Assembly (NCBI GenBank): GCA_023259115.1
Contig: JAHFQW010000012.1
Location: forward strand, 1 to 48,195
DNA: 48,195 nucleotides
Source: an archaeon
GTDB taxonomy: Archaea; Nanobdellota; Nanobdellia; Woesearchaeales; GW2011-AR9
Direction of reading: 5' to 3'
The notes under the pieces were generated by a model. That model worked only from the letters and a program-made list of their open reading frames with translations, was not told where the DNA came from and made no database searches. Of the stretch, positions 229 through 36,383 are shown piece after piece (position 1 is the first letter of the stretch; the number at the start of each line of letters is the position of its first letter). The position numbers and the translations under genes are program-made.

Positions 229-1128
229 ATGAAAAAAAGTATTGTGATAGTGTTGCTCATGCTCAGTGTACTATTCATTCTCAGCTGTAACACCCCCAAA
301 ATTACCTCCCCTCCCGTATCAGAACCGGTTTCCCCATCCCCTTCACAAACACCCTCTCCCCTCCCTCCCGCGGAAATAAAAGTAACTGAATCCCCTGTGC
401 CATCAGCTCAACCAACACCTCCTCCCGCCACATCTAAACCAACTTCTCAGCCTATCACTAAACCTGCCATCCTCCCTCCCGTTCTCGCACCAGAAAAAAG
501 AACCACTCCTCCTATAACTCTTCCGACCCCAATCATTTCATCTCAAGAAACATTTGACGGCACAGTCATAGACAATTCAAAATATAAAACCCAACTCACC
601 GGTTCAGCCTTCCTCAATCAAGACAATAAAATAAGTATGTCTGGCAATAGCACAAACGGCATCGCCTGGGCTTCACTTTATACTCTCCAAAAATATAACC
701 AAAACACCGATTACAATCTCTCGGTTTACGTCAACCTAACCGGCCCTACCACGATTGGCACCGCCAACGCCGTTGTCGGTTTAGAAACACTTCCCACTTT
801 AATCTCAGGAAAAAATTCCGAACAAGGCTACTGCGAGCTTAGTATTGGTCAATATGACAAAACCCTACGCATGTCGCGCTCCGTTGGTCATCTCATTCAA
901 GACGCCTCCCCCAGTGGTATTCTCAACATCTATTGGAATAAAAAATTAGGCAAACTCACCTGCACATTTAATGATCTTACCATCACTCAATACCAAATCC
1001 CCCTTAATGGAGAATATTACGCCTCTATTCGCGGCGGCATCAATTATCTCTCCAGTGGCGGACTCGAGAGCGCCGGCCTTGGCAGCTTTCAAGTAACATT
1101 TGATAACTTTTCTGTAAAACAAGAATAG
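229..1128 (+). CDS. Secreted lipoprotein with proline-rich linker
   Basis: The N-terminus is a classical lipoprotein signal: KK, a hydrophobic stretch, then a lipobox ending at Cys20 (LFILSC). Residues about 22-105 are very rich in Pro, Ser and Thr and look like an extended, wall-spanning linker. The C-terminal part (about 108-299) is rich in Gly, Asn and beta-strand patterns and is probably a compact beta-sandwich (concanavalin/LamG-like); this fold is inferred, no motif proves it. A TATA-like stretch (agctttttaag, near 197-207) lies upstream, fitting a leaderless transcript. It is likely anchored outside the cell membrane, perhaps binding a polymer. The function is unknown. Confidence 0.7.
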   Translation: MKKSIVIVLLMLSVLFILSCNTPKITSPPVSEPVSPSPSQTPSPLPPAEIKVTESPVPSAQPTPPPATSKPTSQPITKPAILPPVLAPEKRTTPPITLPTPIISSQETFDGTVIDNSKYKTQLTGSAFLNQDNKISMSGNSTNGIAWASLYTLQKYNQNTDYNLSVYVNLTGPTTIGTANAVVGLETLPTLISGKNSEQGYCELSIGQYDKTLRMSRSVGHLIQDASPSGILNIYWNKKLGKLTCTFNDLTITQYQIPLNGEYYASIRGGINYLSSGGLESAGLGSFQVTFDNFSVKQE

Positions 1129-1205
1129 ACACCTTACCTCATTTTCTTCTAATCCACCATTTTCTTGCCATAAACCTATTAAAACAACCTCAATTATCAA
1201 GCATA

Positions 1206-1799
1206 ATGCTCCTCTCCTCTCTTCTTCAAACAGTTGGCTCACAACAAAAAGCCCAAGAAATCTTACTCATTCTCCACAACCAAAAACCACTCCTCCGTCA
1301 AGGCTATTACGAATCGGAACTACCACCCATTCAAGCATTCTGCTCTCAGCACTCTCTCCATCTCGTCAAATCAACATTCAAAGTCCTCTTAGACGACCCA
1401 AATCACTTCACCAACAAAGGCATCAGAATCCCATCCACTGACCCTCGTTCTGGCATGTATTTCATCTACATCGCCAAAGACGAAAAAACCGCCTATCTCG
1501 CCTCCTATCACGAACTCACAAATAACCATCATGACCTAGGATTACTCTTAGGGTATCCTCCTTGTTGTATTGATTTTTTTAGTAATCATTTTAATGAACA
1601 ACACACAAATCTCGAACACCCCCCCGCCAATCCCTGGACCAATCTCACCTTGCGCGAAAAAGACATCTGCCTGCTCTCCCACTTTCCTTGTTCATCTGAT
1701 TGTGAGCAGAGTATTCTTCTCGCACAGAAATATTATGCCACTCTAGAACAAGTTGATCCGACATACGCCAAAGAAATCATCACTCATTTAAACATCTAA
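1206..1799 (+). CDS. DUF483 family protein
   Basis: The 197-residue protein carries the hallmark LGYPPCCIDFF near residue 115 and a later HFPCSSDCEQSILLA segment near 160. This Cys-Cys plus CSSxC arrangement is what I know from the archaeal DUF483 family. The cysteines could bind a metal or an Fe-S cluster, but no activity has been shown for the family as far as I know. The length is normal for a complete member. The 3' end overlaps the convergent end of the 946-residue gene by 12 bases. The start at 1206 follows an A/T-rich stretch without a clear ribosome binding site. Confidence 0.75.
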   Translation: MLLSSLLQTVGSQQKAQEILLILHNQKPLLRQGYYESELPPIQAFCSQHSLHLVKSTFKVLLDDPNHFTNKGIRIPSTDPRSGMYFIYIAKDEKTAYLASYHELTNNHHDLGLLLGYPPCCIDFFSNHFNEQHTNLEHPPANPWTNLTLREKDICLLSHFPCSSDCEQSILLAQKYYATLEQVDPTYAKEIITHLNI

Positions 1800-4628
1800 T
1801 CCCTTCTCTCGCAACTCCTCTAGAGTCCCCGCTCGTTTAAAAATATGTTGAATATTTTCTTTATCATATCCCAACGTAAGTAAATCAAACATCGCTCGTT
1901 GAGCTACTGCAATAATTGACTCGCCAGTTCTCGCCTCAGCATCCACTTCTTCAATAACTCGCCTAACCATCTCTTGATACCGCGCCATTTCACTCGTCAT
2001 TTCTTTTTGTGGAACATCAATTCCCACCAGCTCATCTTCATGAAAATGCGCATACCCTCCCCGGACATAATATTCTCTTTTAATACTCCAATCTACACTC
2101 CAAGAAATATCTTTTTTGTCTTGATATCGTACCACATACGAATTCTTATCTATTATCTCAACCAATGTCACCTCTGACCCCAGAGGAATATTTCGTATGC
2201 GGTCATTGAAATAATCTGTTGAATAATCACTTTTAATATTTTCCCGCACTCTCAACTTCATCCCTTTCACCAGTTGAGGCTCAGCAAATAATCGTTCCAC
2301 CGCAACCATATCTGCCGCATTCGCATGAATAGTTCCAATCGGTTTATTTCTCAAAAGAGAGACATGATAACTACCCCTGTTACACAATTCATCTACCTTC
2401 ACAATAGTTCCGGGGGTATATCTTTCTACCTCTTGCGTAAGCATCGCCACGATTCCCCCCTCAATTTTCCTATCTACAACCTTATACGCTTTTCTGATAC
2501 TATTTTCAATATCTCTTATCCACTCCTCATATTTCTTCTTAGAATTAACACCCAAAGCATCCAACACAATTCCTTCTCTCTCTTTCACTCGCTTTGCAAT
2601 GATATTTACTCTGCTCTGATAATCTTTTCTAATCCTACAAATCGTTAACTTCTCAACAATATCTTCACCCAAATACGTTACATCTCTCAGAACATCTTCA
2701 TGATGCTCTCTCACCACATACGAAATAACTTCCTCCATCACTCCCGCATTTCGTAATTGCGTAACAAACGTTTGCACCACTGCTCGTTCTTGTTCCTCTC
2801 TTACTCTGCCAATCATCTCCGCTTCTCGTACAACTTCCTCAATACCTAGCGTTAATTGGTGTATTCTTCTCCGTCTCTCTTGTTCTAATGCTTTTCCTCT
2901 CATCACTCTAAATGTATCAGGTCTTTTCACAAACTCTAATTCATCAGGCCCATACTCTTTCACCATAGTCTTAGAAAAACGCACCAGATAAGGTCGTTCA
3001 TCTGATTTAATATGTTCAATCACCACTCCTTCTCCTCCTCTCACTAACTTTGAAAACCTACTCCCCTTCTTCAATCTCACTTTACTTCCCACATCATATA
3101 CCAATTCACCTCTCTCCATTGCCTCTGCTAATGGATCAAACACTTTTTCTTCCTTGCTCATCTGAAATACTCCCTCTACATACTGTTTTTCAATTTCCCA
3201 TGTTACAGGTAATTGTTTATCATAATTCCCAGATAAATAATGAAATTCAATATGCCAATATGTTCCAATATCATTTCGCACATATCCCCAACTACCCTCT
3301 GTACTGTAATTATAATGAGACCCATCGATAATCTCTACTTTATCACCCACTTTGATCTCTCTACTCTTATTTATCCCTGGAATAAGTGTCGGTCGTATCA
3401 ATTTCATCTCTAAATCATCCAAGCGTTCCAGAATAGAATACATTTTTCCTTTCTCCATAAAATTTAATTTTTTTCCTTCTAATCTACCTCTACTTCCCAG
3501 AGGCAATCTCTCTAGTGTAACCCCGCATTTATACTCTCGTCCTTCTTTCCCCAACGCCTGAATCGTGATAACCTCATCACCTAACTTAAACTCTCTAAGT
3601 ATATTCACGGCCTCCCAGCCATTCAACACTCGTTCTAATAAACTACTTGTAAATGTGTCATACTCTTTTTGCGAATCCATTCTTGTAGGAAGATCTATAA
3701 TAATCCCTCTCTTTTCTCTCAATTTCTTGCCAATTTCTCTCACCTGCTTCATATAAACATCTGTATTCGTTCCCAATTCTTCTAATACTTTTTTAAAATT
3801 CTGCCGTTGCTCTGCACGTAACTCTCTGGCAGTCATATAGTGCAACACTTCTAATGTCACTCTATCCTCTGGCGTATCTTTCTCAACTAGTAAACTATAA
3901 AGCATCACTTCGTCTGCTCCTCTATCTTTCCTCTTTTTATAATCAAACACTCTCTGTTGCGTCTCTCTATCCTTATTTGTCTCTATAACTGTTGTAAGAG
4001 CGAGTAATTCTTGTATCTCTTCTTTAGTTTGCAGAGTTGGGATATATCTACTTGCAATCTTCAACTCATCTGCAATTAATCCCGCCACCATCAACTCCTC
4101 AGGTTCAAAAGTCAAAAAATGCAAGAACGATTCTTGATACAATAACCCTCCTACTTCTTGCTTCTCTTTGGTCATATCAAATTTTTTTTTGGATTGTGGT
4201 AAGACATCGTTCAAGAATCTCACCTCTTGCCTAAAAAATGTTCTTGCTTTCTCAACCATTTCTTCTAATCCCTCTTCAGAGTCAAAAGCATAGGGATACT
4301 GCAATCTCTTAAACACATTTTTCAAGATAAAATATTTAATAGTAAATGAATCTTCTAGAAATTCTTGTGCATCAATTTTCTCTCTCTCTGTTACCAGAGA
4401 ATAACTCCACAATAATTTCATAAGATCTTCCCCAGGAAAATCACTCCAATCAATATTTACTCCTGTATGGATAATTGACGCAATATGTTTTATCGCATCA
4501 TAGGGTGGTTTGACAATCTCTATCTCTTCTGTCTTTCGTTCTTCTTCTTCCGCTGTATCTAATAATGCTAATAAATCTATTTCTGATTCTAAGTCCAATT
4601 TATCTTTTTCATCATGTGCCATATTCAA
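1788..4628 (-). CDS. Large protein with SH3-like repeats, last gene of the ubiquitin-like operon
   Basis: I do not recognise this 946-residue protein as a whole. It is mostly charged and helical, with several short beta-rich modules that look like SH3/Mib-Herc2-type barrels: about residues 348-415, 426-485 (VGDKVEII ... EGSWGYVRND ... WHIEF), 512-568 and 755-855 (a second block with MKLRVREN ... VVRYQ). Helical segments around 590-640 and 875-925 resemble each other (IEEV ... EAE/EAR ... L ... G), so the protein may be two rounds of helix bundle plus barrels. No transmembrane segment or catalytic motif is visible. Position suggests a role as scaffold, substrate adaptor or E3-like factor for the E1/E2/JAMM genes upstream; this is inference. 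Hairpin element B1 separates it from the E1 gene. Met1 and Met3 are both possible starts. Confidence 0.7.
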   Translation of the reverse strand: MNMAHDEKDKLDLESEIDLLALLDTAEEEERKTEEIEIVKPPYDAIKHIASIIHTGVNIDWSDFPGEDLMKLLWSYSLVTEREKIDAQEFLEDSFTIKYFILKNVFKRLQYPYAFDSEEGLEEMVEKARTFFRQEVRFLNDVLPQSKKKFDMTKEKQEVGGLLYQESFLHFLTFEPEELMVAGLIADELKIASRYIPTLQTKEEIQELLALTTVIETNKDRETQQRVFDYKKRKDRGADEVMLYSLLVEKDTPEDRVTLEVLHYMTARELRAEQRQNFKKVLEELGTNTDVYMKQVREIGKKLREKRGIIIDLPTRMDSQKEYDTFTSSLLERVLNGWEAVNILREFKLGDEVITIQALGKEGREYKCGVTLERLPLGSRGRLEGKKLNFMEKGKMYSILERLDDLEMKLIRPTLIPGINKSREIKVGDKVEIIDGSHYNYSTEGSWGYVRNDIGTYWHIEFHYLSGNYDKQLPVTWEIEKQYVEGVFQMSKEEKVFDPLAEAMERGELVYDVGSKVRLKKGSRFSKLVRGGEGVVIEHIKSDERPYLVRFSKTMVKEYGPDELEFVKRPDTFRVMRGKALEQERRRRIHQLTLGIEEVVREAEMIGRVREEQERAVVQTFVTQLRNAGVMEEVISYVVREHHEDVLRDVTYLGEDIVEKLTICRIRKDYQSRVNIIAKRVKEREGIVLDALGVNSKKKYEEWIRDIENSIRKAYKVVDRKIEGGIVAMLTQEVERYTPGTIVKVDELCNRGSYHVSLLRNKPIGTIHANAADMVAVERLFAEPQLVKGMKLRVRENIKSDYSTDYFNDRIRNIPLGSEVTLVEIIDKNSYVVRYQDKKDISWSVDWSIKREYYVRGGYAHFHEDELVGIDVPQKEMTSEMARYQEMVRRVIEEVDAEARTGESIIAVAQRAMFDLLTLGYDKENIQHIFKRAGTLEELREKGLDV

Positions 4629-4633
4629 TATAT

Positions 4634-4813
4634 TATAGAGGAATTTGAATAAACCCTCTATTCATCAATATAATAGACCGCAGTTTATTTACAAGAAATA
4701 CGAAAACTATCGTATTTCTGTACAGAAAATAAATCGTTTATTTTCTTGTATTAGATAACTGTGTCAAATATTATATATTCTACACCGTTATCTATATTCA
4801 AAGTCATCCTATA
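4634..4813. repeat. Hairpin element B1 with covarying core
   Basis: Outer ends are TATAGAGGAATTTGAATA on the left and the inverted TATTCAAAGTCATCCTATA on the right. Inside are a TACAAG junction, a hairpin GAAATACGA/TCGTATTTC with loop aaacta, a CTGTACA junction, a hairpin GAAAATAAA/TTTATTTTC with loop tcg, and a CTTGTA junction that can pair with TACAAG. The right end supplies the TAG stop codon of the E1 gene. It lies between the last two genes of the operon, so it may end or process the transcript. Confidence 0.75.
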
Positions 4814-6491
4814 TCTCTAAATTCGGTATTCTCTCCTTATGTACATAACAATCACACACCGATCGCAGTGCTGTAAACCCTAATCGCGAATCCAAATCAG
4901 TCGCATATTTAATCGAGCCATTCAATGGGAGGCCGTATCGCTGCCCATCAAAAAGTGTTCCTAGTTCCAATGCCGCAAGCGCCGCTCCAACTTGATTGGT
5001 CATAATAACCGAAGGATCTGGCTGTGCAATACAACTCTGTCTTCGAATAATCTCCTCTTGCCTGCCTCTCTCATAATAATCACTAAATACATGATTCATA
5101 CACGAACTCTTTCCTGGCACATACACTGCCACTTGCGCCGCATCTGGTGAAGACGCCGCACTAATCAACGCAATATCCCTCTCTGTTGCATACGCACTAA
5201 TCAATGCCCGCGCATATAAATTATCCACTAAATCAAAAATCGCATCATACTTTCCTCTTCCGTAAGTATCAATTGAATATGTTCCCTCTTTTCGTTCAAA
5301 TCTCTCAACCAATGCTCTCGTCTTAGCACTAGGATCCATTCTGTGATGTTTTTGTGCAAGCACTCCTGCTTTCTCTTTTCCCACCGCATCATAAAATAAC
5401 ACTTGGCGGTTCAAATTATGACTCTCAATCGTATCATAATCCAAATAATCAACCTCACCGATCCCCATTGTGCTCAACGCTAGTGTCATAATATTCCCTA
5501 ACGCTCCCGCACCAATTACCAGCACTCTCTTATCAGCATATAATTCTCTCTCCTCTTTTTTCTCACTCGGTATATTTTGTGGTACTATCATCTCCCCCAG
5601 ACGTCGAAAAGAAAATCTCTCTCCCTCTACGCCTCGCTTGTAATATAACGCGCGAGGAAATTCCATTCTTGTTGCATCAGTTAAAATAATCTTTTTGACT
5701 TCTTCCGAAATAACTCCCCCCCACAGCAAAGCTAAGAGCGGATGTTGTTCAAAACCAGAAAAATGGGTCATCAAATGATCTACCTCCATTTTCTCTCCTT
5801 GCCATATCATCATCTTTGCATAATTATTGGAAATTCCTGTTGTAATAAAAGGAATTCTTTCAGATCCATATCTATTCTTGGCAAATTCTAACGCCAGCAT
5901 CTTTGATTTAGGATTATTTGTCGTATCAATTATCACCGAACTCTTCTGCAGAAAATCTTGCGCTAATCTTGTTTCTAAATCTACCGGAATACCAATCACT
6001 CTTGTATTTGGGTTAAGCATTTTAAAGCCTCTTTCATACGCCAGAACTCTCTCTTTCCCTGTAAAGCGCATATCCAATACTCGATCTTCTGTTTTCATCT
6101 TACCCGTTCCAATAATGCGCACTTCTCCAACCCCTAATGCCACCAAGGGCAGCGCCGCATAATATGCGCCATAATCTGCCCCAATAATTGTAACAACGGC
6201 GTTCTCTAATTTTATTTGTCCTTCTTCACCCCAAATTTTCTTTTGGCGGTCATAGCGTACCAACTCATTCATTCCCTCAAGCTCAGTATGTTCTACTTCT
6301 GCATGCCCCCTCTCTCCATCTACATGCTCCATCTCTACAAGATCTATCCCTGCATGCTCTACCTCATCTAGCACCGTTGCTGTCTCTTGTTCTTCTACTA
6401 ATTCCCCTATTTTTTCTTTTCTGGGAGGAGGCATAGGTAAACCTATTTTCAAACCTGCATTTTCCAATTCTCCGATTTCTATATCTCCCAT
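4809..6491 (-). CDS. E1-like activating enzyme with two tandem ThiF domains
   Basis: The protein probably adenylates a ubiquitin-like modifier. The first domain (about 79-275) opens with the E1 motif VRYDRQ.IWGEEGQ, but its nucleotide loop is degenerate (GADYGA, 104-109). The second (about 320-515) looks active: GAGALG 327-332, acidic residues D350/D352, HNLNRQ 358-363, GKEK 371-374, and D423-N424 before R428. Candidate catalytic cysteine C487 lies in SCIAQ, followed by PDPSVIMTNQ. C464, C546 and C548 (CDC) could bind zinc. An inactive domain followed by an active one in a single chain is the layout of eukaryotic E1 enzymes; MoeB/ThiF proteins are normally single-domain homodimers. The first 78 residues form an acidic, Pro-containing tail. 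The gene follows the JAMM gene after 129 bases and has only a weak ribosome binding site. Confidence 0.85.
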   Translation of the reverse strand: MGDIEIGELENAGLKIGLPMPPPRKEKIGELVEEQETATVLDEVEHAGIDLVEMEHVDGERGHAEVEHTELEGMNELVRYDRQKKIWGEEGQIKLENAVVTIIGADYGAYYAALPLVALGVGEVRIIGTGKMKTEDRVLDMRFTGKERVLAYERGFKMLNPNTRVIGIPVDLETRLAQDFLQKSSVIIDTTNNPKSKMLALEFAKNRYGSERIPFITTGISNNYAKMMIWQGEKMEVDHLMTHFSGFEQHPLLALLWGGVISEEVKKIILTDATRMEFPRALYYKRGVEGERFSFRRLGEMIVPQNIPSEKKEERELYADKRVLVIGAGALGNIMTLALSTMGIGEVDYLDYDTIESHNLNRQVLFYDAVGKEKAGVLAQKHHRMDPSAKTRALVERFERKEGTYSIDTYGRGKYDAIFDLVDNLYARALISAYATERDIALISAASSPDAAQVAVYVPGKSSCMNHVFSDYYERGRQEEIIRRQSCIAQPDPSVIMTNQVGAALAALELGTLFDGQRYGLPLNGSIKYATDLDSRLGFTALRSVCDCYVHKERIPNLEI

Positions 6492-6620
6492 TTTTCAATT
6501 CTCTGAGTTCCAATTCTCTTCTCTTTATTATAATTTCTCTACTCTCACTTGTTTCTTCACAATCTTAATCCCTCCTGATTTTATTTTTTCGTATTCATAT
6601 TTACTCCTAATCCTATTTCC
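6492..6620 (-). other. Gap between JAMM and E1 genes with a possible micro-ORF
   Basis: This 129-base gap holds a strong GGAGGG ribosome binding site on the minus strand, followed nine bases later by GTG and a ten-codon frame (MKKQVRVEKL) ending in TAATAA. The E1 start has no such site. The small frame may be a remnant, a leader peptide or chance. Confidence 0.3.
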
Positions 6621-8192
6621 TCAGAATTTCGTTCTATCTCTGTGAACCTCATCATATAACTCTGGAATAAATTTTTCCATAGCCTCATTCTGATCATGTG
6701 CTAAAAAATTCCACAGAAAAGATACTTGTATATCCTCTTTATTTCCCTCCAGTGTCTTTCTAATATTCTCTCTCGCTTTTCCCAATATATAATCTTCATT
6801 TCTATCAACTAACGTTGGCACTTCCACCTCTTCTCCATCCGATTCCAGAGGACCTATTTGGTATATTGCTTGTCGTAAACTAATTCCCTGCTGCGATCTC
6901 CCTAATACTCCCAGTAAATCATTCATATATCCTGAGTAAAATACCTCTTGTGAACGATATCTGCTCACATACCCTGCCGCCGCATACACAAAAAGATTTA
7001 CTAATTCTTCTGGTCGTAGACTCGGTTGTTCTTTTTTCACAAATTTATTTGTATGTGACATGAAATAGGAACTATTCGATTTTTGATATTTTTCATATCC
7101 ATCTAACAACGATTGTGAACTAGCCATTTCCCTTCCTGCTTGAAATCCTAACCCATTTGATATGCCCACATCCTCATCTAAATCCCTTTGAAACCATCTC
7201 TTATTTCTCTTGCCATTCCCACTTGGAAATTTCGCCACATATTTGGGTGGAAAAACAATCCTCTCTCGCACTAATTCTTGCATTGCCTGTGTTGTAAACT
7301 CAACATCATCTTCTACATCAACAACTTCCAGTGATATAGTCTGTCGTATAATCGTTTTCTTGCCAATCCCCGTAATGCCTTTCTCCTCTACAATCCCTAT
7401 CTCTGCATAAGGCGTATCTTTTTTTTCATTTACCACAATACTATAGCCAAACCCTCTGATCAGTGGCTCATACGTTTTAAGATCGCACAACTCCACAACT
7501 TCTCGCCACAATCTCTGCACCTCCTCTTCGCTTGCTCTCTTCTTACCAAAACTAAACCCATTTTTTTTCCCAAAGCCATATTGTTCTAATAATTGTTCTA
7601 ATCTTTCTGGATTAGGAATGGTATATTCTAAATACCCATCCACCGTATCTTGACCTGTAATCCTAATCTTTCCCTCTTTCAGCTCCCAGCTAGGTGCACT
7701 CTCCACAATATTAAGAGGTATTCTCTCTCGTTGTTGTGTATTAAGATAGAGGGTATTCAATAACTGCTCAAAATTCTCATTATCTGTTTGAGAATGATTT
7801 GGTTGAAAGTCCGCATGACTATGCAGCCAGCCAATAATATAATAATCTCTGTCTAACTCCTCATTTAATTTTACAACTTCCAAATTTGCTCTTGCATGAT
7901 TCTCACCTGACACTGCCACATAGGCATGACCTGCGTGTGTACCTTTTACCAGCAGTAAATCTCGTACCACATAGCATGGATCATTTTTTTGCGCCAACAG
8001 AAACGAAAACCACTCATTTGCTTTGCCATCAATTGTATGCACCGCTCTACATATCTCATACGCTTTCTCTAACGTATTTCTGGTAATTGGCAATGTTGAA
8101 GGAATAAATACTCTTTCTTGTATTAATTTCTCTTCCCGTTTCATATCCCCTTGTAATAATGCTAATAATTCCTCATCATCTTCGTTCGTCAT
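6621..8192 (-). CDS. JAMM/MPN metalloprotease, predicted deconjugase and precursor protease
   Basis: Residues about 35-195 form a JAB/MPN domain. The zinc motif is complete: E60 in ANEWFSFLL, then H124-x-H126-x7-S134-xx-D137 in WLHSHADFQPNHSQTD. Such enzymes cleave after the C-terminal Gly-Gly of ubiquitin-like proteins, either to mature a precursor or to release it from a target. The remaining about 300 residues are charged and have no motif I recognise; the protein is much longer than a bare MPN domain and so has a specific partner-binding part. Its ATG overlaps the TGA of the E2-like gene (ATGA at 8189-8192), so the two are translationally coupled. The neighbouring small protein has a Gly-Gly followed by six residues, a natural substrate candidate. 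Confidence 0.88.
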   Translation of the reverse strand: MTNEDDEELLALLQGDMKREEKLIQERVFIPSTLPITRNTLEKAYEICRAVHTIDGKANEWFSFLLAQKNDPCYVVRDLLLVKGTHAGHAYVAVSGENHARANLEVVKLNEELDRDYYIIGWLHSHADFQPNHSQTDNENFEQLLNTLYLNTQQRERIPLNIVESAPSWELKEGKIRITGQDTVDGYLEYTIPNPERLEQLLEQYGFGKKNGFSFGKKRASEEEVQRLWREVVELCDLKTYEPLIRGFGYSIVVNEKKDTPYAEIGIVEEKGITGIGKKTIIRQTISLEVVDVEDDVEFTTQAMQELVRERIVFPPKYVAKFPSGNGKRNKRWFQRDLDEDVGISNGLGFQAGREMASSQSLLDGYEKYQKSNSSYFMSHTNKFVKKEQPSLRPEELVNLFVYAAAGYVSRYRSQEVFYSGYMNDLLGVLGRSQQGISLRQAIYQIGPLESDGEEVEVPTLVDRNEDYILGKARENIRKTLEGNKEDIQVSFLWNFLAHDQNEAMEKFIPELYDEVHRDRTKF

Positions 8193-9595
8193 TGCTTTTC
8201 CCCCTGTATCTCTTCTCCCCTCTCCTTACCATCTAAAATCCACTCATTCGTAATTCTATACCCTGCCTCAACTGCCTGTTCACGTGTCAATGTTCCCACT
8301 GTGGTATACGTTTCTTTGAGCGATCGTCCAAAATACATTGCATTCTCATCTCGTGAACCATGTTCATCTAAACTCTTTAAAGTCAACCCGTTGGTAAACG
8401 CATTAATCGCGCTAGATATATGGCGTACAATTCCCTGCGCTGTATTCTCGAAATTTCCCCCACTTAAAATACAAATATGTTCATACCTATTCTTCCAATC
8501 ACGCAGAAAAGGATGCGCCATTTCATCAACAACATATGCTCCTTCATGGTAAACACGTCCATCACTGGCATTTACCCGTACACTCACTCTTGTCGCAGGA
8601 AAAGGATGATATCGTTGTGGTTCTAGTGGATTTTGCATTGCAAATTTGGGCATTTCCCAATAAACATAGAACAATTCACCCTCTCGAATATATCCTAAAT
8701 TTCCATACTCAAAATTCTTTGTATCTGCCAATCTTTCCAACGCTCCTCTTCGTTTCTTCTCATTCGCCGGAATCATCACTCGCTCATCTGTCTCTACATT
8801 CCACTGTGCTAATGCGCTCTGTTTTAACGTATTCAGAAGTAACTGATCATACTTCTCTCCTAAATCACTCGCAGAACAATTATATTCTAATCCATACATT
8901 ATATTTTCAATTGATATGCGTATTTCTCCTTCTTTCTCCTCCTCGTCTATATCCCGTAATCCAAATATCTCTCCTCCCATAACACAAATTGATCCTTGCA
9001 CCAAACGATCCCACAATGTCTTCTCTCCCTGCTCTTTTATAATTCCCTCCGCTCTAATATACGGCTCTTCTCGTATCTCTTGTGTTATACGTTCTAACAC
9101 TTTCTGTCGTAATCGCTCTTTTTCTTGAAATACATTAATCTCCTCAACATCTTCCCCCTCTTTGGAATTTAACTGCAAAACATCCTCAATCACTTCTCTT
9201 CCTGATTTTTTTACCTCTAAATCAACATGAAGTAATTCTCCTAAATCATACGCTGTATCAATCATCAACGGTAACACTTCTAACAATACAAATTCCTGCA
9301 ATCGTAAAATATCTTTTCTACTATCTTTTTGCCTCTCTGATAGAATCTCCGCCTGTAATGCTTCTTGCACATAGTTTTGTGTAAACGTAAACATTTTCCC
9401 TTGATACAACCGTTCTTCTAAATCCTCCATTGCCGCAACCGACATAAACTGGTTCAAATCATATCTTCTTTCTCCCACTTCAACTCTGTTTGACTTCCTA
9501 GAATCATGTTCACTAATGGTATAAATAACCCCTGAATCAATCACAAAAGAAGATAAATTTGCTAAACGTTCAAAAAAATTCGTATGATTTTTCAT
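8189..9595 (-). CDS. E2-like conjugating protein with long N-terminal extension
   Basis: The C-terminal part (about 295-405) follows the E2 (UBC) pattern: strands GYIREGELFYVYWEM, then YHPFPATRVSVRV (compare the E2 YPF.PP.V.F), then HPFLRDWKNRYEHICIL, which matches the E2 HPN...G.ICL core. This makes C375 the predicted catalytic cysteine and H361 the HPN-type histidine. The asparagine of HPN is replaced by Phe, as in several divergent prokaryotic E2 families. A helix rich in Ala and Ile follows. The first about 290 residues are helical and charged and unknown to me. The gene lies between the ubiquitin-like and JAMM genes and overlaps the latter by 4 bases. A GAGGAAT site precedes ATG. The E2 reading is by pattern and needs a structure model. 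Confidence 0.7.
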   Translation of the reverse strand: MKNHTNFFERLANLSSFVIDSGVIYTISEHDSRKSNRVEVGERRYDLNQFMSVAAMEDLEERLYQGKMFTFTQNYVQEALQAEILSERQKDSRKDILRLQEFVLLEVLPLMIDTAYDLGELLHVDLEVKKSGREVIEDVLQLNSKEGEDVEEINVFQEKERLRQKVLERITQEIREEPYIRAEGIIKEQGEKTLWDRLVQGSICVMGGEIFGLRDIDEEEKEGEIRISIENIMYGLEYNCSASDLGEKYDQLLLNTLKQSALAQWNVETDERVMIPANEKKRRGALERLADTKNFEYGNLGYIREGELFYVYWEMPKFAMQNPLEPQRYHPFPATRVSVRVNASDGRVYHEGAYVVDEMAHPFLRDWKNRYEHICILSGGNFENTAQGIVRHISSAINAFTNGLTLKSLDEHGSRDENAMYFGRSLKETYTTVGTLTREQAVEAGYRITNEWILDGKERGEEIQGEKQ

Positions 9596-9743
9596 AGGGC
9601 TTATTCCTCTACCCCGCCTCTCTCATGTCACTTTCTCTCTCACTCTTTCATATTAACTTCTCTCTCTTCTCTTTTTCTCTTCAACCAAAATTCACACTCA
9701 AATCCTCTATTCAATGCATTATTAAAAAAAAATTAAAATAAAT

Positions 9744-10163
9744 CTACTTAAAGTAGTATTCTGCTCCACCCGTTTGTTTGGATGCCACAATCAGATCAAG
9801 ACCCATATAGGTATTCCCTTTCATAGTTTTCTCAGTAAAATATAATAGAGATTTATCTTTACCCAGACGTGCTTCACCATTCACCGTAAGTCCATATCCC
9901 CTCTTCATTTCTCCTTTAATTGTTGCCGCAATTTGTTCTGCTTTGCGCGCTTTTGTCGCTGGACCAAGACCATATTGAATAATCTCATCTAACGATCCTT
10001 GTAAGAATTCTGCTGGCACGTCATATCGTAATGCCCCTTCCGCCGCACTTCCTGGTTTCATTGCCACAATATATCTTAATCCCTCTCGAATCGCAGGCAC
10101 TACTACTTCTGGAAGCACTGCTGCTTTTTCTGCAGGTATTGCCGTTTTATTTTTTTTTGCCAT
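9744..10163 (-). CDS. Candidate ubiquitin-like modifier precursor
   Basis: This 139-residue protein is the first gene of the operon. After a basic, Ala-rich N-terminus (1-25), the order of predicted elements matches a beta-grasp fold: strand (LRYIVAMKPG), strand (ALRYDVP), helix (about 57-86), strand (GYGLTVNGEARL), then strand (YMGLDLIVASK). It then ends TGG-AEYYFK. The Gly132-Gly133 pair lies directly after the last strand, as in ubiquitin, and would become the C-terminus if the last six residues were removed, a job that fits the JAMM enzyme two genes downstream. A TAAGGAGTGA ribosome binding site lies at about 10171-10180. The fold is inferred from pattern; identity to known modifiers is very low. 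Confidence 0.65.
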   Translation of the reverse strand: MAKKNKTAIPAEKAAVLPEVVVPAIREGLRYIVAMKPGSAAEGALRYDVPAEFLQGSLDEIIQYGLGPATKARKAEQIAATIKGEMKRGYGLTVNGEARLGKDKSLLYFTEKTMKGNTYMGLDLIVASKQTGGAEYYFK

Positions 10164-10742: not shown

Positions 10743-11945
10743 ATGCCTCCTCTCGAAGTTGCCATAATTGGCGCAGGTCCCAGTGGACTTCTAGCTGCTG
10801 ATAAGCTCCTTGGAACCGCCACTTTTGAGAGCAACATCCATTTAATCGAAAAATCACAATCTATTGGGGGAATTCCTTCCCAATATTCTACCGTATCTCC
10901 TAATAGTCCATTTCATGATTTATACTCATTTCTAATGGATTTGCGCGCCGAAGAAATATTCTCTGACCAAGGTAATAAAACCGCAGATAAAATTCTACAA
11001 CAGGCCAAAACAGATCCTTCCTTGGCTCACGTTGCCTCCGCATTTCAGCTCCTCTGGGACGACCTCTTAAGTAAAGCACACAATTCACGATTAGATTTTC
11101 AATATGGCACTACTGCTACCAAAATCATCGAGTTATCTAACGGCCAATATCATGTAGAACTCTTAGAAAATATCTGGGACACATCCACACTCACCGTTGA
11201 CGTTATTATATCCGCCATAGGTGGTGAACTTTCTCAAAATCCCTATAATGGGCTATGTGAATCTGAAATTGATCTTAAAACCGCTCTTGATGCTCATGGT
11301 TCTCTCTTTAAAGAAAAGAAAGTAGTCATTGTTGGAGCATCCCATTCTGCCGCTATTGCCTTCATTAATGCAGTCAATCAAGGAGCTAAACAAATAGAAG
11401 TATGGTATCAAAACAATGCATTTCGTGAACATCGTATCAACGGTAATAACATTAAAGAATACCAATTTAGTGGAATCAACGAACCAACCTTGAGCAGATT
11501 AAAAAAAGCCATGGCCCAATTTTCAGGGAGATACCAATGCAAATCAGTAATTGATCCTCAATTTAACATCCAAACTACAAAAGAAAAATATCAAGAATGG
11601 TGTATCGTTCCAGCTCTGGGATTTAAAAAACCCTCTTTGCCTTTTTATGCACTCAATGGAAAAGTAGGACAACTCGAAAACATCACTCAAGGCGAACATT
11701 TTCTCGATTGCGCCCCAAATTTATGTTATCCAGGAACTAATAATCCCATCCCAAGAATATACGGACTAGGATTAGCCTATCCTTTAGAATACACGCAAAA
11801 CTTCCTGGAAAACACACATGAAATTCCTGGTGCAAAAATAGTGGGAATTTATTTCACAAATGAACTTACAAAATATCTCGTACCCGACATACTACAAAAT
11901 TGGCCAGAGCACTTAATTGAGCAAGAAGATGATGAACTTGATTAA
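10743..11945 (+). CDS. FAD/NAD(P)-dependent oxidoreductase
   Basis: The N-terminus is a Rossmann FAD-binding fold with GAGPSG at residues 10-15 and an acidic strand end (LIEKS), followed by GGIPSQYS. A second Rossmann strand with VVIVGASHSAAIAF at about 195-208 is the likely NAD(P) site; the usual third glycine is replaced (GASHSA). The layout is that of FMO/lysine-hydroxylase or thioredoxin-reductase-like enzymes, but the substrate cannot be read from sequence. There is no CxxC redox pair. A second FAD enzyme of similar type lies 2.8 kb downstream, with a MoxR/VWA pair between them. Confidence 0.75.
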   Translation: MPPLEVAIIGAGPSGLLAADKLLGTATFESNIHLIEKSQSIGGIPSQYSTVSPNSPFHDLYSFLMDLRAEEIFSDQGNKTADKILQQAKTDPSLAHVASAFQLLWDDLLSKAHNSRLDFQYGTTATKIIELSNGQYHVELLENIWDTSTLTVDVIISAIGGELSQNPYNGLCESEIDLKTALDAHGSLFKEKKVVIVGASHSAAIAFINAVNQGAKQIEVWYQNNAFREHRINGNNIKEYQFSGINEPTLSRLKKAMAQFSGRYQCKSVIDPQFNIQTTKEKYQEWCIVPALGFKKPSLPFYALNGKVGQLENITQGEHFLDCAPNLCYPGTNNPIPRIYGLGLAYPLEYTQNFLENTHEIPGAKIVGIYFTNELTKYLVPDILQNWPEHLIEQEDDELD

Positions 11946-11979
11946 TGATAGATGAAATTTATGATAAATTTAATTATGA

Positions 11980-12303
11980 TATAGTAAATGTGTGAAATAA
12001 TCGAATATTAAACCACACATTTACTTACAAGAAATGTGAAAGCTATCACATTTCTGTACACACAAAATAGGAAAACTATCCTATTTGTGCACAGACAAAA
12101 TCGCTGTTTTGTCTTGTGGAAAATGAGTCATTACTCATTTTCTTGTATTAGTAATGGTGAACAAAGCTTTGCTTCAGCAAAGTGTTGCATCAGCAACATT
12201 ACTTGCTGATAAGCAAGTCACAAACGTCAGTGACTTGAGGAACGCTAGTGACTTTATCATGAACGGAGTGACTCGAATTCGAAAATTATTCACCATTACT
12301 ATA
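11980..12303. repeat. Hairpin element A2 (full length)
   Basis: This 324-base copy is nearly identical to A4 (40661-40985). It has the same chain of five hairpins as A1. Its outer right hairpin GTAATGGTGAA/TTCACCATTAC then encloses a further set: CTTTGC/GCAAAG, TGTTGC/GCAACA, ACTTGC/GCAAGT and AAGTCAC/GTGACTT. It lies between the FAD gene and the MoxR gene and ends 25 bases before the MoxR start. Confidence 0.85.
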
Positions 12304-12316
12304 ACTGATAAAACCC

Positions 12317-12321
12317 GGAGG
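12317..12321 (+). promoter_or_regulatory. Ribosome binding site of the MoxR gene
   Basis: GGAGG lies seven bases before the ATG at 12329 and decides the start. An upstream frame starting at 12154 inside the hairpin element is therefore not the gene. Confidence 0.7.
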
Positions 12322-12328
12322 AAATATA

Positions 12329-13207
12329 ATGACTTATACACCATTTAATGGAACTAAAAAATACCAACCAGATGCCCGATTAACAACCATGGTAAATATC
12401 GCCATCGCTCGTGAGCGTCCCCTTCTTATTACCGGTGAAGCAGGAACGGGTAAAACTCAACTCGCCTATGCCATTTCTGAATTTCTAGGATTACCTCTAT
12501 ATAGAGCACAAATGACATCAACCATGGAAGGAGAAGAAATATGTTATACATTTGATTCCGTTCTGCGTTTAACTGATTCACAACTTGTCAGCCATGGCAG
12601 CAGTATCGATGGACGTGTCATTTCTAATCCTTTATGTTATGTAAGATATGGTGCTATGGGCAAAGCATTTTGTGATGAGAAACGCAGTGTAGTTTTAATA
12701 GATGAAATAGATAAAACAGAGAGTACGGTTCAAGATGATTTACTGCGAGTATTAGAATCGTATGAATTTGAGGTTCGTGAAGCCAACACCGTAATCAAAG
12801 CTCATCAGAAACCTATCATTGTAATTACCAGCAACGGTAAGAGAGAATTATCTGATGCTTTTCTGCGAAGATGTTATGCCCATCACATCGATTTTCCCGC
12901 AAAAGAACAACTACACAAAATTGTGCAAATACATTATCCCCAAACCAATCCTCTCATTCAACAACATGCCATAAATATTCTCTACGAATTCCGTTCAATT
13001 GGTTTGGAAAAATCACCTGCAACCTCTGAAATATTAGATTGGATTGGTGCACTCAACGATTTAAACATCATTCCTCCCAGAACAATTCACAATAAAGAAG
13101 AAATCCCCTTAATCGGCCTTCTCTTAAAACGAGGGATGGATTTAGAGAGGGTAACAGAAGGAAACTTCCAAACCCGCCGGAATCGTGATGAGAGGGTAGG
13201 AGTGTAA
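12329..13207 (+). CDS. MoxR-type AAA+ ATPase
   Basis: The 292-residue protein has Walker A GEAGTGKT (36-43), Walker B VVLIDEIDK (121-129), sensor 1 TSN (167-169) and DAFLRRC (176-182) with the arginine finger. These fit the MoxR family of AAA+ chaperones, which act with a von Willebrand factor A partner to insert cofactors or remodel protein complexes. The VWA partner is the next gene, 74 bases downstream. A good ribosome binding site (GGAGG) precedes the ATG. The natural client is unknown; the two FAD enzymes that flank the pair are candidates by position only. Confidence 0.9.
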   Translation: MTYTPFNGTKKYQPDARLTTMVNIAIARERPLLITGEAGTGKTQLAYAISEFLGLPLYRAQMTSTMEGEEICYTFDSVLRLTDSQLVSHGSSIDGRVISNPLCYVRYGAMGKAFCDEKRSVVLIDEIDKTESTVQDDLLRVLESYEFEVREANTVIKAHQKPIIVITSNGKRELSDAFLRRCYAHHIDFPAKEQLHKIVQIHYPQTNPLIQQHAINILYEFRSIGLEKSPATSEILDWIGALNDLNIIPPRTIHNKEEIPLIGLLLKRGMDLERVTEGNFQTRRNRDERVGV

Positions 13208-13225
13208 AATAAAGAATATAGAATA

Positions 13226-13270
13226 AGAAATATAACTTCAGAAATATAAAATTAGAAATATAACTTCAGA
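13226..13270 (+). repeat. Two direct repeats of AGAAATATAACTTCAGA
   Basis: Identical 17-base copies occupy 13226-13242 and 13254-13270 with a 28-base period in the leader of the VWA gene. They may be a regulator site or a slippage product. Confidence 0.6.
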
Positions 13271-13281
13271 TAAGAGATACA

Positions 13282-14709
13282 ATGTACACTTCATTCACCT
13301 ATGCCCTCAGAAAAGAAGAAATATCCGCAACCCCTGCTCATCTTCTTGATTTAATGGAAGGTATAGAGCAAGGACTTGCACCAACTCTGGGCGATCTCTT
13401 TCTTCTTGCCAGAGCCACTTATGTTAAAAAACATCGACAAGAAAAAGCTTTCCAGCGCGCTTTCTTTTCCTATTTTCTCAATATCCCTACTGCTAAAAGT
13501 ATTCCTCTAGAACAGTCCATTGAGCAATCAACACAATTTCAACAATGGGTTCAACAAGCAGAAATACCAGAACATGAACCTAAAGTAAAATATTTTATTA
13601 TGGTTCTCTTTGGTGATCAGCCAATTTCTCTAAAATCATCCCTCCTAAAATCATCAATCCCCAGACCAAATATACCTAATTCCCATTTATCCGATCTAGA
13701 TTCTATTCTAGATGAATTTAAAAAAAGAATGATGCAGGAAAAAATACAACCCCATTTTGATAAAAATTATCAACCGGCAATAAAGCCAAAATCAATTTTG
13801 GAGAGTAACCTCAATGACACGGGGGGATATACCGTCGCAGAAGATCACAAAGCCGAATTGATCGATTACGGTGATATTTCTAATAAAGAATTAGAAGAGA
13901 GATTACGTAAAACACTCCAAGCGCAGCAAGAGAAACATGAAGGAGGTAACCAGTGGATTGGTCAAAAAGGTAATAGTCCATTTGGTCATAATGGCTTTAG
14001 TAGATATGGCATTCGTATTGGTGGCAGCAGTCAAAACCGTGCTGCACGCCATGTAATTGACACTGCAGGAACAAGTTATGGTACAGGTAGAAAAATAAAA
14101 GGCTACGAAGATGGTACTATCCAAGAAACGTTACAGCAACTCAAATTAGTCCGTGTCGTAGAAAATAGTTCATCAACAGTTCTCAATCTTCGAAAAACCA
14201 TCCGCCAGGCAGGAAAAAAAGGCTATGTTCAACTACACTACGAACATCAAAAGAAAGATCAAATGCACGTGATCACCTTCATTGATAGTGGTGGCCGTTC
14301 CATGAATCGCCATGTTGCAAAAGTAGAAGAACTCCTTGCCAAAATGCGTTCAGAATTGAAATCACTTGATACTTATTATTTTCATAATTGTATCTATGAA
14401 CACGTTTTTTCAAATCCTCTACAGCAACACCCTCTCTCATTAGAAACCATCACTTCTCAACCTAAAGAAACTAGAATAATCATTATTGGTGATGCTTCTA
14501 TGGATGAATCTCGAGAAATTAATCTCAATACCCTTGGAAGAGTACAAAAAGCATTTCCTTACACCGCATGGCTCAATCCTGTACCACAAGAGTTATGGGA
14601 TGAAACAGCCAGTATTAAACAGATCAAGACTATATTTGAAATGTTCCCTCTCACGCCTCCCGGATTATCTAAAATGGTAGATTATCTAACACGTGAAATA
14701 AAAAAATAA
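13282..14709 (+). CDS. Von Willebrand factor A domain protein, MoxR partner
   Basis: The C-terminal half (about 325-475) has the order of a VWA domain. The metal site reads FIDSGGRSMNRH (D335, S336, S340), a modified form of the DxSxS MIDAS motif, and a later strand IIIIGDASMDES carries the last acidic residues. The N-terminal half is helical with a Gln/Glu-rich middle. A basic, Gly/Ser-rich segment (about 215-255) looks flexible. This is the CoxE/YehP-like partner commonly encoded beside MoxR ATPases. The extra bases in the MIDAS motif (one residue longer than usual) may weaken metal binding. Confidence 0.75.
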   Translation: MYTSFTYALRKEEISATPAHLLDLMEGIEQGLAPTLGDLFLLARATYVKKHRQEKAFQRAFFSYFLNIPTAKSIPLEQSIEQSTQFQQWVQQAEIPEHEPKVKYFIMVLFGDQPISLKSSLLKSSIPRPNIPNSHLSDLDSILDEFKKRMMQEKIQPHFDKNYQPAIKPKSILESNLNDTGGYTVAEDHKAELIDYGDISNKELEERLRKTLQAQQEKHEGGNQWIGQKGNSPFGHNGFSRYGIRIGGSSQNRAARHVIDTAGTSYGTGRKIKGYEDGTIQETLQQLKLVRVVENSSSTVLNLRKTIRQAGKKGYVQLHYEHQKKDQMHVITFIDSGGRSMNRHVAKVEELLAKMRSELKSLDTYYFHNCIYEHVFSNPLQQHPLSLETITSQPKETRIIIIGDASMDESREINLNTLGRVQKAFPYTAWLNPVPQELWDETASIKQIKTIFEMFPLTPPGLSKMVDYLTREIKK

Positions 14710-14734
14710 ACTCATCTCAAAAATAGAAGACACC

Positions 14735-16345
14735 ATGCCCACTGCCATCTCCCAACTCAAATCTGAACCAACCACCAATCAAACACAAGAATTTCTCAGT
14801 TCCTATCTCTCACAATGCCTGCGCGATAAAAGCTATAGCCCCAAAGATCTTAAAGAATTATTAGATAACCCGCAATTTTCTTCATTTTTTCTCAGCAAAT
14901 CACTGCGTATTACTCCCACCCAGAATCAAGCTCTCCAAACCGCCGTTCATAGCGCCTTCCAAAAAATCACCCAAGAAAAAAATATATCTCCTCCTCTACC
15001 AACATTCATTGAACCCTACTTTGGATCCCCTAATCAAAATGTTCTCATTGACCAAAGTATCGCTCAATCAACCAATGCCAAAGAGGGAGCCAACTATTAT
15101 CTACGTAACATCGATCGTATCGGCGCAACCACTGCTTTTGGCATCTATCCACAAGAACAAAATCTCCCTCTCAAAATATATCAAACCCCTATCGCCATCA
15201 TCGGTACCGGTATAAATGGTGTCATGACCGCTCGTACTTTAATCCAACTAGGCTGGAATCCCGATGTCATAACTCTCTTTGATAAAAGCGGTAAATACGG
15301 TGGTATTTGGAACTTTGATTTTGTCGCAGGTCTTTCCCGCAACAATCCTCGTGATTTATCTTTCTTAGGCCAAACTCTCCCTAGAGCTCCCGGTTCAGGC
15401 GAAGAAATCTCTAATTTTATTCATCAACTCCACACAGAATACTTTCACTTGCTGCCAGAACCCAAACGCGCAATTGTCACACAAATCTCCCCAGGCAACC
15501 TTGAACATAAAATTATCTTTAAAGAAAAAAATAAACAAATAGAACAAACATTTCCCATTATTATCCTCGCCCCAGGCATAGGCAAACCCCTGCCCCTCTC
15601 TAACCCTGAAAAAATGACAACCCTAACACCTCTAACTCAAGCAGGATATCGCTGGCAGCAAGTCATAACTCCAGAAAAAGCCAACGAATATAGAAATAAA
15701 ACTCTCATTTTCATTGGTTTAGGTAATAGCACCGGAGAAATGCTTGTTCAAATTCAACAATGGAACCAACGAGGCTATAACATTGACTATCGTATTCTCA
15801 CCCATTATCCCCAAAAATCTCTTCAATATCCTAACGATATCTTCACTACCAAAAATCAAACCTATCGATTATTTCGAGATATCAAAACACCCAATCTCGT
15901 TGATTATGCTGGTGATCTGCCTGAACTCAATTACGTCTATTTCTCCGCTCTTAAAGAAAAAAAAATAATCTCCGATGTTGTTAATTGGCAACGTAAAGAG
16001 AATACCATTCACCTAATCAACCATCAAGGCAAAACTGAAAAATTAGCTTTTGATCAACTCTTCACTCTCATCGGCTACGGTCATTCTCCTGACGAATTAC
16101 ATCAATTTGGATTAACTCTTAACCCCCAAACAAATTCCGTGCTCTATGACTACGATGGCGAATTTCAGCGTCCAAACCCCCATGGTCTCTCTCGTCTCTA
16201 CAAAGGCTATTTTGGCATAGGACCCATCCTCAATTGTCCCGAAAATCCTAACGCTTTCGTTATCCCCGGCACAATGTACCGCCTCAATGATCTATTATGC
16301 GGCATTGTCTTACGTTCTTACGAATATACTATCGGGAAAAAATGA
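14735..16345 (+). CDS. FAD-dependent monooxygenase-like protein with extra N-terminal domain
   Basis: A Rossmann FAD site (IAIIGTGINGVMTA, starting near residue 152) is followed by KSGKYGGIWNFDF, the GGxW element of flavin-containing monooxygenases. A second dinucleotide site, TLIFIGLGNSTGEM, lies near residue 326. The first about 140 residues are helical and precede the catalytic part; I do not recognise them. The gene follows the VWA gene after 25 bases and probably shares its transcript. It is related in type to the 400-residue FAD protein at 10743, so the four genes may form one redox system; the substrate is unknown. Confidence 0.72.
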   Translation: MPTAISQLKSEPTTNQTQEFLSSYLSQCLRDKSYSPKDLKELLDNPQFSSFFLSKSLRITPTQNQALQTAVHSAFQKITQEKNISPPLPTFIEPYFGSPNQNVLIDQSIAQSTNAKEGANYYLRNIDRIGATTAFGIYPQEQNLPLKIYQTPIAIIGTGINGVMTARTLIQLGWNPDVITLFDKSGKYGGIWNFDFVAGLSRNNPRDLSFLGQTLPRAPGSGEEISNFIHQLHTEYFHLLPEPKRAIVTQISPGNLEHKIIFKEKNKQIEQTFPIIILAPGIGKPLPLSNPEKMTTLTPLTQAGYRWQQVITPEKANEYRNKTLIFIGLGNSTGEMLVQIQQWNQRGYNIDYRILTHYPQKSLQYPNDIFTTKNQTYRLFRDIKTPNLVDYAGDLPELNYVYFSALKEKKIISDVVNWQRKENTIHLINHQGKTEKLAFDQLFTLIGYGHSPDELHQFGLTLNPQTNSVLYDYDGEFQRPNPHGLSRLYKGYFGIGPILNCPENPNAFVIPGTMYRLNDLLCGIVLRSYEYTIGKK

Positions 16346-34178: not shown

Positions 34179-35216
34179 TTATTGTGCTGGTCGTACCGCA
34201 TCCGCGTTAATGATTCCATTTAAATCCAAACGTCGAATCGTCGCCCCATTCCCTCCTTGAGCGCCACAAGGTAATACCGTAATGCCCAAAGGGTGGAAGT
34301 TCTCAATGTACGCCATTAAGACCGCTGAATCTCCCCCTCGGCTATTCATCGCTTCTCGCAGCTTCACAATCGCTTCGCCTTCTGCTTTTCGTTGTGCCAG
34401 AGTATATTCAGCTTTTTTCTCATTTTCAACATAAGTAGAGTCTGCTTCTTGTCGTACCCGGCGATCCTCTCCATTTGCTGCCGCTTCTTGTTGATTAGAA
34501 GCACCAACCTGGTCTTGCAAATTCTTTTTCCAAAGCTCTGCTTGCGAATCAATCATCTTCTCCCATTTTTCTTTATCCTTAGCCGCGCCACGAGCCTCAT
34601 CTATTGCTTTTTGATATTCTGGATCATCAAACACATACTCCTGTAAACTAACTTGATCAACCAAAATACAATACTTTGCAAATCTCTTTTTTAGTTCCTC
34701 TGTTGCACCTGTAACCATCTTAAACCGCTTATCTCCCATGTAAAATTCAGAGGAAGACAACTGGCTCAAATAATCTCGCACAATACTGCGCGCCAATGGT
34801 CGCACATATTTTTCTTTTATATCATCTATATCTATTCCTACCGTTTCAATAACTGTTTGTACACATTTTGGTGATTGATCTAATCGCCAGTTCATCACCA
34901 CATCCTGTCCAATATCATTTCCTTCTTTGGTTTTAAACTGTAAATCATCCCTCTCTTTTCTATCTCCTGTCTTTTCACTGCGAGTCATATAAAAATTTTG
35001 CATCGTAATGGGTAATGTATACCAATCCCAGCGTAACGGTGCTAAAAATACTGTTTGTCCTGGTGGAACAATCTCCACTTTCTCACTCCCGCACCAAAAT
35101 TTGCAGTATTGCACCCCATTTTCATTATTCTCTGTACTATGCGGTCTACACCCTGTAACACTTCCCAGTGTAAGAGCTGCCGCAACACTTGCGGCAATGT
35201 ATTTTATATTATTCAT
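34179..35216 (-). CDS. SPFH/Band-7 (prohibitin-like) lipoprotein
   Basis: A lipobox ends at Cys23 (GSVTGC). An SPFH domain follows (about 50-215: VPPGQTVFLAPLRWDW ... VRDYLSQLSSSEFY), then an Ala/Glu/Arg-rich coiled coil (about 215-290), typical of prohibitin/HflC proteins. Such proteins form large membrane-bound rings. The ATG overlaps the stop codon of the other SPFH gene, and GGAGG lies before it, so both are made together. Confidence 0.8.
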   Translation of the reverse strand: MNNIKYIAASVAAALTLGSVTGCRPHSTENNENGVQYCKFWCGSEKVEIVPPGQTVFLAPLRWDWYTLPITMQNFYMTRSEKTGDRKERDDLQFKTKEGNDIGQDVVMNWRLDQSPKCVQTVIETVGIDIDDIKEKYVRPLARSIVRDYLSQLSSSEFYMGDKRFKMVTGATEELKKRFAKYCILVDQVSLQEYVFDDPEYQKAIDEARGAAKDKEKWEKMIDSQAELWKKNLQDQVGASNQQEAAANGEDRRVRQEADSTYVENEKKAEYTLAQRKAEGEAIVKLREAMNSRGGDSAVLMAYIENFHPLGITVLPCGAQGGNGATIRRLDLNGIINADAVRPAQ

Positions 35217-36295: not shown

Positions 36296-36383
36296 AATTC
36301 TCATCTCCTTGATTCATTTAATTTATCTCATTAATTTCATTCATTAATCATTTATTCTGCTATGGGTCAATCACTCATTTTAA

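Follow-up and report, generated by a model that had tools for sequence, protein, structure and literature searches.

A five-gene operon of a woesearchaeal genome very probably encodes a self-contained, reversible ubiquitin-like conjugation cascade, as predicted from sequence and structural models. The operon lies in contig JAHFQW010000012.1 of assembly GCA_023259115.1 (1.57 Mb, 96% complete), and the window, meaning the whole stretch analysed, covers 48,195 nucleotides. From the promoter-proximal end, the genes encode a candidate ubiquitin-like modifier (Ubl), a protein resembling conjugating enzymes (E2-like), a JAMM metalloprotease, an activating enzyme (E1) and a large accessory protein. 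The five open reading frames (ORFs) are co-directional on the minus strand, running from 10163 to 1788, and their coordinates and strand, re-read from the sequence, agree with the operon and gene order proposed in the initial annotation. Because the E2-like and JAMM genes overlap by 4 bases and the remaining intergenic gaps measure only 129-180 bases, a single transcript for all five genes is likely. The sequence or the models show directly which genes are present and in what order, together with conserved catalytic residues, a beta-grasp modifier, an MPN protease and a two-half E1.

Structural modelling supports the 139-residue protein as a Ubl precursor with a predicted beta-grasp fold. The AlphaFold2 model, based on 13 family members, forms a single beta-grasp domain at about residues 31-128 (predicted local distance difference test score, pLDDT, 80.7; predicted template-modelling score, pTM, 0.68). 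Its tail-bearing strand ends at residue 128 and is followed by ...QTGG, with Gly132-Gly133, and a six-residue tail, AEYYFK; some relatives have longer modifiers. Foldseek places Caldiarchaeum ubiquitin (CsUb) at the top of the PDB matches, with SUMO1/2, ISG15 and FAT10 also among the best and almost all matches belonging to the ubiquitin family (probability about 1, template-modelling score by target up to 0.66, E 0.003-0.05). Pfam returned no match for the modifier, and NCBIfam and PADLOC likewise gave nothing useful. Although modifier bodies in the family alignment are only about 18-54% identical, nearly all main-copy modifiers keep a glycine near the C-terminus, in the form GG, GA, QG, PG, SG or LG, and then a short tail. 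The Caldiarchaeum JAMM protease takes nine residues off CsUb by cleavage precisely behind Gly-Gly, and it still cuts a variant in which the second glycine is changed to alanine (PMC6043591), so the GA modifiers are compatible with processing. Three operons (L070, L071 and L072) carry two modifiers and two JAMM genes, and a few second-copy modifiers (L070, L071) show no clear terminal glycine, which is lost or altered.

Sequence comparison supports the E1 as an asymmetric pseudo-dimer, with a putatively degenerate N-half and an intact C-half in one chain. Two ThiF domains are present (Pfam ThiF, E=3e-46), in agreement with the E1-like enzyme first proposed. The family profile matches UBA6 and UBA1 best in the PDB, over two stretches, and the N-half of the window E1 matches APPBP1, the regulatory subunit of the NEDD8 E1. 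Half-to-half comparison shows that the N-half lacks the DxD and NxNR positions and that it alone carries an RYxRQ motif. The C-half contains D351, D353, N359, R362, K374, D420 and C487, and its adenylation residues and C487 are invariant in 19 diverse E1 homologues; C464/H467 and C546/C548 form a putative zinc site. The ThiF match is continuous over residues 317-516 (profile positions 17-204) and runs through C487, 23 residues past C464. No helical cysteine domain of about 80 residues was found, as there is no large insert within this match, which leaves no room for a domain of the type present in BilD, the E1 of bacterial Bil operons.

The protease combines an MPN domain with a C-terminal extension. 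Its metal site is complete (E60, H124-x-H126-x7-S134-x2-D137), and these residues are kept in 95-100% of 40 homologues, which confirms the full EH-HxHx7SxxD site read earlier. The PDB profile matches are BRCC36 (5e-8), Rpn11 and CSN5, and the Prok-JAB match in Pfam is weak. At locus L061, two very long tandem JAMM proteins with repeated low-complexity extensions are encoded at 583-4794 (1403 residues) and 4840-7920 (1026 residues).

Confidence in a conjugation cascade is lowered mainly by the E2-like protein, since its UBC fold is a prediction from a motif, predicted secondary structure and gene context. The AlphaFold2 secondary structure of the C-terminal domain runs through a helix, strands in hairpins, an HPF loop, the cysteine and further helices, an order that corresponds to that of UBC domains. 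Within the motif HPF...IC375IL, which begins at H361-P362, C375 is conserved in 97%, P362 in 95% and H361 in 81% of 37 aligned homologues. The N-terminal part is large and, like the rest of the protein, matches no Pfam family. A search of bacterial genomes with Prok-E2_B, made for a better E2 reference, gave no match, and its controls were silent too.

Several results weigh against the cascade. A Foldseek search of the whole E2-like model against PDB and viral libraries gave no significant or interpretable match, and the protein matches no Pfam family, with nothing useful from NCBIfam or PADLOC. A profile comparison with six human E2s aligns HPF..C on HPN..Cys with a score not above column shuffles. 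The conserved cysteine of the initial annotation stands, but the UBC fold found no significant fold or profile match. For the modifier, the Foldseek E-values are modest (best 2.6e-3); the proposed fold and the Gly-Gly hold for the window, whereas strict Gly-Gly is not kept across the family. Finally, the operon contains no E3 ligase, with no RING or zinc-ribbon family found by Pfam among the five ORFs.

The large protein matches no Pfam family above cut-off. Its repeats were missed by internal BLAST and found with a module hidden Markov model (HMM), which recovers two modules (Table 1) with the pattern ...PLGSxG...V.....W..HPDEL..., also present in neighbouring genes. The description of this protein as a large SH3-repeat protein thus holds for the repeated modules but not for the fold: the label SH3-like was assigned by eye only, and profile searches gave no Pfam or PDB match. 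Homologues of the large protein lie near E1 in 16 of the 41 loci. At loci L063 and L066 the E2-like protein itself carries this module, fused to its N-terminus, which is the strongest indication that the large protein and the E2 act together. The operon encodes no RING E3; the SH3-like modules, joined directly to the E2 in two relatives, would be the leading candidates for an E3-like role in which they recruit targets or serve as a scaffold.

From these features we infer how catalysis would proceed, what the large protein may do and what might become of targets. The JAMM protease would first trim the short tail of the modifier and expose the terminal glycine. The C-half of E1, aided by the arginine-bearing N-half of the same chain, would then adenylate the Ubl and form a thioester on C487, from which the Ubl would pass to C375 of the E2. 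Next, the E2 would attach it to amino groups of target proteins, and the same JAMM protease could later remove it. Possible outlets for tagged proteins are refolding or degradation, by the 20S proteasome or by an operon-encoded ClpX-type unfoldase in some relatives.

Table 1. Features of the predicted conjugation operon and of nearby genes (window positions)
Feature	Length or residues	Position	Strand	Basis
Ubl, candidate modifier precursor	139 aa	9744-10163	-	ORF; AlphaFold2 model; Foldseek; family alignment
E2-like protein	468 aa	8189-9595	-	37-homologue alignment; AlphaFold2 secondary structure
Predicted UBC-like C-terminal domain	~275-455	8231-8773	-	
Conserved cysteine of E2-like protein	C375	8471-8473	-	
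JAMM/MPN metalloprotease (deubiquitinase-like)	523 aa	6621-8192	-	weak Prok-JAB; PDB profile matches; 40-homologue alignment
MPN domain	~30-150	7743-8105	-	
E1, single-chain tandem adenylating enzyme	560 aa	4809-6491	-	two ThiF stretches; alignment; PDB profile matches
Inactive N-half of E1	~78-275	5667-6260	-	
Active C-half of E1	~312-560	4812-5558	-	
Conserved cysteine of E1	C487	5031-5033	-	
Large accessory protein, TTG start	946 aa	1788-4628	-	homologues near E1; module HMM
SH3-like module of large protein	787-846	2091-2270	-	module HMM, independent E-value 4e-14
Second SH3-like module of large protein	347-385	3474-3590	-	module HMM, independent E-value 4e-7
Divergent cluster		10743-16345	+	
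Flavin-monooxygenase-like protein	536 aa	14735-16345	+	
Two adjoining SPFH/Band-7-like genes		34179-36304	-	Pfam check of the 345-aa one only

In a comparison of 353 genomes of the order, 47 carry a relative of the E1; the E2 profile matches 35 of the 371 genomes sampled from the whole phylum, each of them in the same order or class. In the 41 neighbourhoods, in which ORF calling missed a few E1s counted among the 47 genomes, the prevailing gene order is Ubl-E2-JAMM-E1, in many cases with the gene for the large protein behind it. The expected conserved neighbourhood in other DPANN genomes was thus found, with the same gene order in most cases, and this recurrence, together with the number of genomes carrying E1, indicates that the operon is more than a chance arrangement. 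Pairwise distances correlate between E1 and E2 (Mantel rho 0.73), E1 and JAMM (0.68) and E2 and JAMM (0.65), with 0 of 2000 permutations as high, which suggests that these three proteins travel together as a set. All system loci belong to Woesearchaeota and close kin; in a scan of genome contigs, the metagenome-assembled genomes of close relatives are labelled Candidatus Woesearchaeota, Pacearchaeota, Nanoarchaeota or Nanoarchaeia, and single ones archaeon or Euryarchaeota. Occurrence is patchy: the system is absent from the sole other same-genus genome searched (G001), and some genomes hold two or three versions. Neighbouring genes are mostly housekeeping (PGK, NadA, EF-1A, SRP54, RNA polymerase, L10e), and the loci do not lie in defence islands, as judged from neighbour families without a background control. 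PADLOC matches among the neighbours are generic AAA and kinase matches and were not counted as defence. Two relatives have a ClpX-type AAA+ unfoldase gene within their Ubl operon or adjacent to it (L051:599-2182 and L082:6720-7835).

One use of such a cascade could be protein quality control or stress response, in which AAA+ ATPases unfold tagged proteins and the 20S proteasome degrades them, a role that we consider a real possibility, if slightly short of an even chance. The genome encodes 20S proteasome subunits, the neighbourhoods have a housekeeping character, and ClpX-type AAA+ genes accompany the operons of L051 and L082; a MoxR-type AAA gene and a possible VWA gene lie in the divergent cluster adjoining the window operon. 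The AAA association is nevertheless rare, at two loci, and the MoxR/VWA adjacency may be coincidence. Moreover, E1 was undetected in 306 of the 353 genomes, so quality control would not be a core function.

A second use, in which the operon would be an archaeal representative of the antiviral Bil family of bacteria and attach the Ubl to viral structural proteins, is unlikely. The comparison uses the gene content, order and features given in a review: BilABCD encode Ubl, E2, deubiquitinase (DUB) and E1, and BilD joins an inactive and an active adenylation domain in one chain (PMC11354881). The first four genes of the window operon follow this order and include a Bil-like two-half E1, which qualifies the earlier statement that no known system has this gene content; the JAMM DUB would likewise expose the C-terminal glycine of the Ubl. 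Patchy distribution also recalls what defence genes often show: the system is missing from G001, whereas certain genomes hold several copies that diverge from one another. However, BilD carries an alpha-helical cysteine domain of about 80 residues inserted in its active adenylation domain, and BilA has two consecutive Ubl domains (PMC11354881), whereas the window E1 lacks such a domain and the window modifier has one beta-grasp domain. The archaeal operon also differs in the large N-terminal part of its E2, in its extra SH3-module protein and in a Ubl and an E2 that match no Pfam family, and its neighbours are housekeeping genes rather than a defence island. No homologous Ubl or E2 was found in the bacterial loci examined, viral contigs held no tandem E1 but only short ThiF-like segments, and plasmid E1 matches revealed no Bil operon, the two matches examined being ThiF/MoeB. 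Because the cysteine-domain, double-Ubl and defence-island features all fail, the operon is not classed as Bil, although it may work like it.

A sulfur-carrier or cofactor pathway of the MoaD/ThiS-MoeB type, in which the E2-like protein would have another identity, is very improbable: although Pfam and NCBIfam models of ThiF/MoeB match the E1 C-half and its cysteine occupies the crossover-loop position, the modifier has a tail that would need proteolysis, the fold matches ubiquitin, SUMO and ISG15 rather than MoaD/ThiS, the tandem E1 is asymmetric, a conserved HP..C protein is encoded alongside, and no sulfur-transfer or molybdopterin family appears among the listed flanking-gene matches. The same genome also carries a separate ThiS/SAMP-like gene and a ThiF on another contig, which argues that the operon is a second, distinct Ubl system and not the sulfur-carrier set.

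The predicted conjugation cascade also shares features with other systems. Like the Caldiarchaeum and Asgard operons (CsUb, E1, E2, RING srfp, CsRpn11), it combines a precursor ending in Gly-Gly and a tail with an E1, an E2-like protein and an Rpn11-like JAMM protease, and CsUb is the closest fold match of its modifier; unlike them, it has no RING E3, its E1 is a tandem of two halves and its E2 is not recognisable by sequence. For C. subterraneum, a review describes a Uba3-like E1 that has a separate domain for the catalytic cysteine (PMC11354881). The asymmetric pair of inactive and active adenylation halves, with RYxRQ in the N-half alone, resembles eukaryotic UBA1/UBA6 and APPBP1-UBA3, whereas the first and second catalytic-cysteine half domains and the ubiquitin-fold domain are missing and the cysteine lies in the crossover loop. 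UBA5 and ATG7 also carry their catalytic cysteine in this loop. CBASS Cap2/Cap3 and PRTRC similarly place E1, E2 and JAB in one operon, but the window operon has no E2-E1 fusion and no CD-NTase; the NCBIfam model PRTRC_ThiF scores the E1 at only 27 bits against a cut-off of 145, with no other PRTRC model listed. The SAMP/UbaA system shares an archaeal Ubl, an E1 and a JAMM protease but is not known to include an E2, and the SAMP/ThiS-like gene lies elsewhere in this genome.

Full sets of E1, E2, DUB and Ubl are known from eukaryotes, from Caldiarchaeum and Asgard archaea, and from bacterial Bil and CBASS operons. The literature search found no such system described in Woesearchaeota or other DPANN archaea, though unpublished or unsearched reports may exist. 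Tentatively, the operon and its relatives might represent a separate DPANN lineage of complete Ubl-conjugation systems, in which SH3-like repeat proteins act as E3 and, in some relatives, ClpX-type AAA+ unfoldases process tagged proteins.

The divergent cluster starts roughly 580 bases away from the gene for the Ubl and encodes a flavin adenine dinucleotide oxidoreductase, a 64-residue ORF, a MadB-like MoxR AAA ATPase, a weakly matching VWA/MadC-like protein and the flavin-monooxygenase-like protein; it possibly has a control region in common with the operon. The flavin-monooxygenase-like protein, whose gene lies at a distance of 4.6 kb from the operon, shares 42% identity with a 542-residue protein (L050:504-2132) of the relative G324, where the gene for this protein comes immediately downstream of that for the large protein, and it is a possible extra partner of the conjugation system. 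Farther away, the window holds two adjoining SPFH/Band-7-like genes (Table 1).

If the prediction is true, a two-half, UBA1-like E1 exists in archaea outside the Asgard/TACK line, and a set widespread in small-genome DPANN archaea would supply a missing data point on the origin of two-half E1s and E2s. Its E1 is an asymmetric single chain like UBA1 or BilD, yet carries its cysteine without a separate domain. The handful of proteins is directly amenable to in vitro test. If no earlier report exists, the operon would give the first hint that Woesearchaeota tag proteins in a regulated way.

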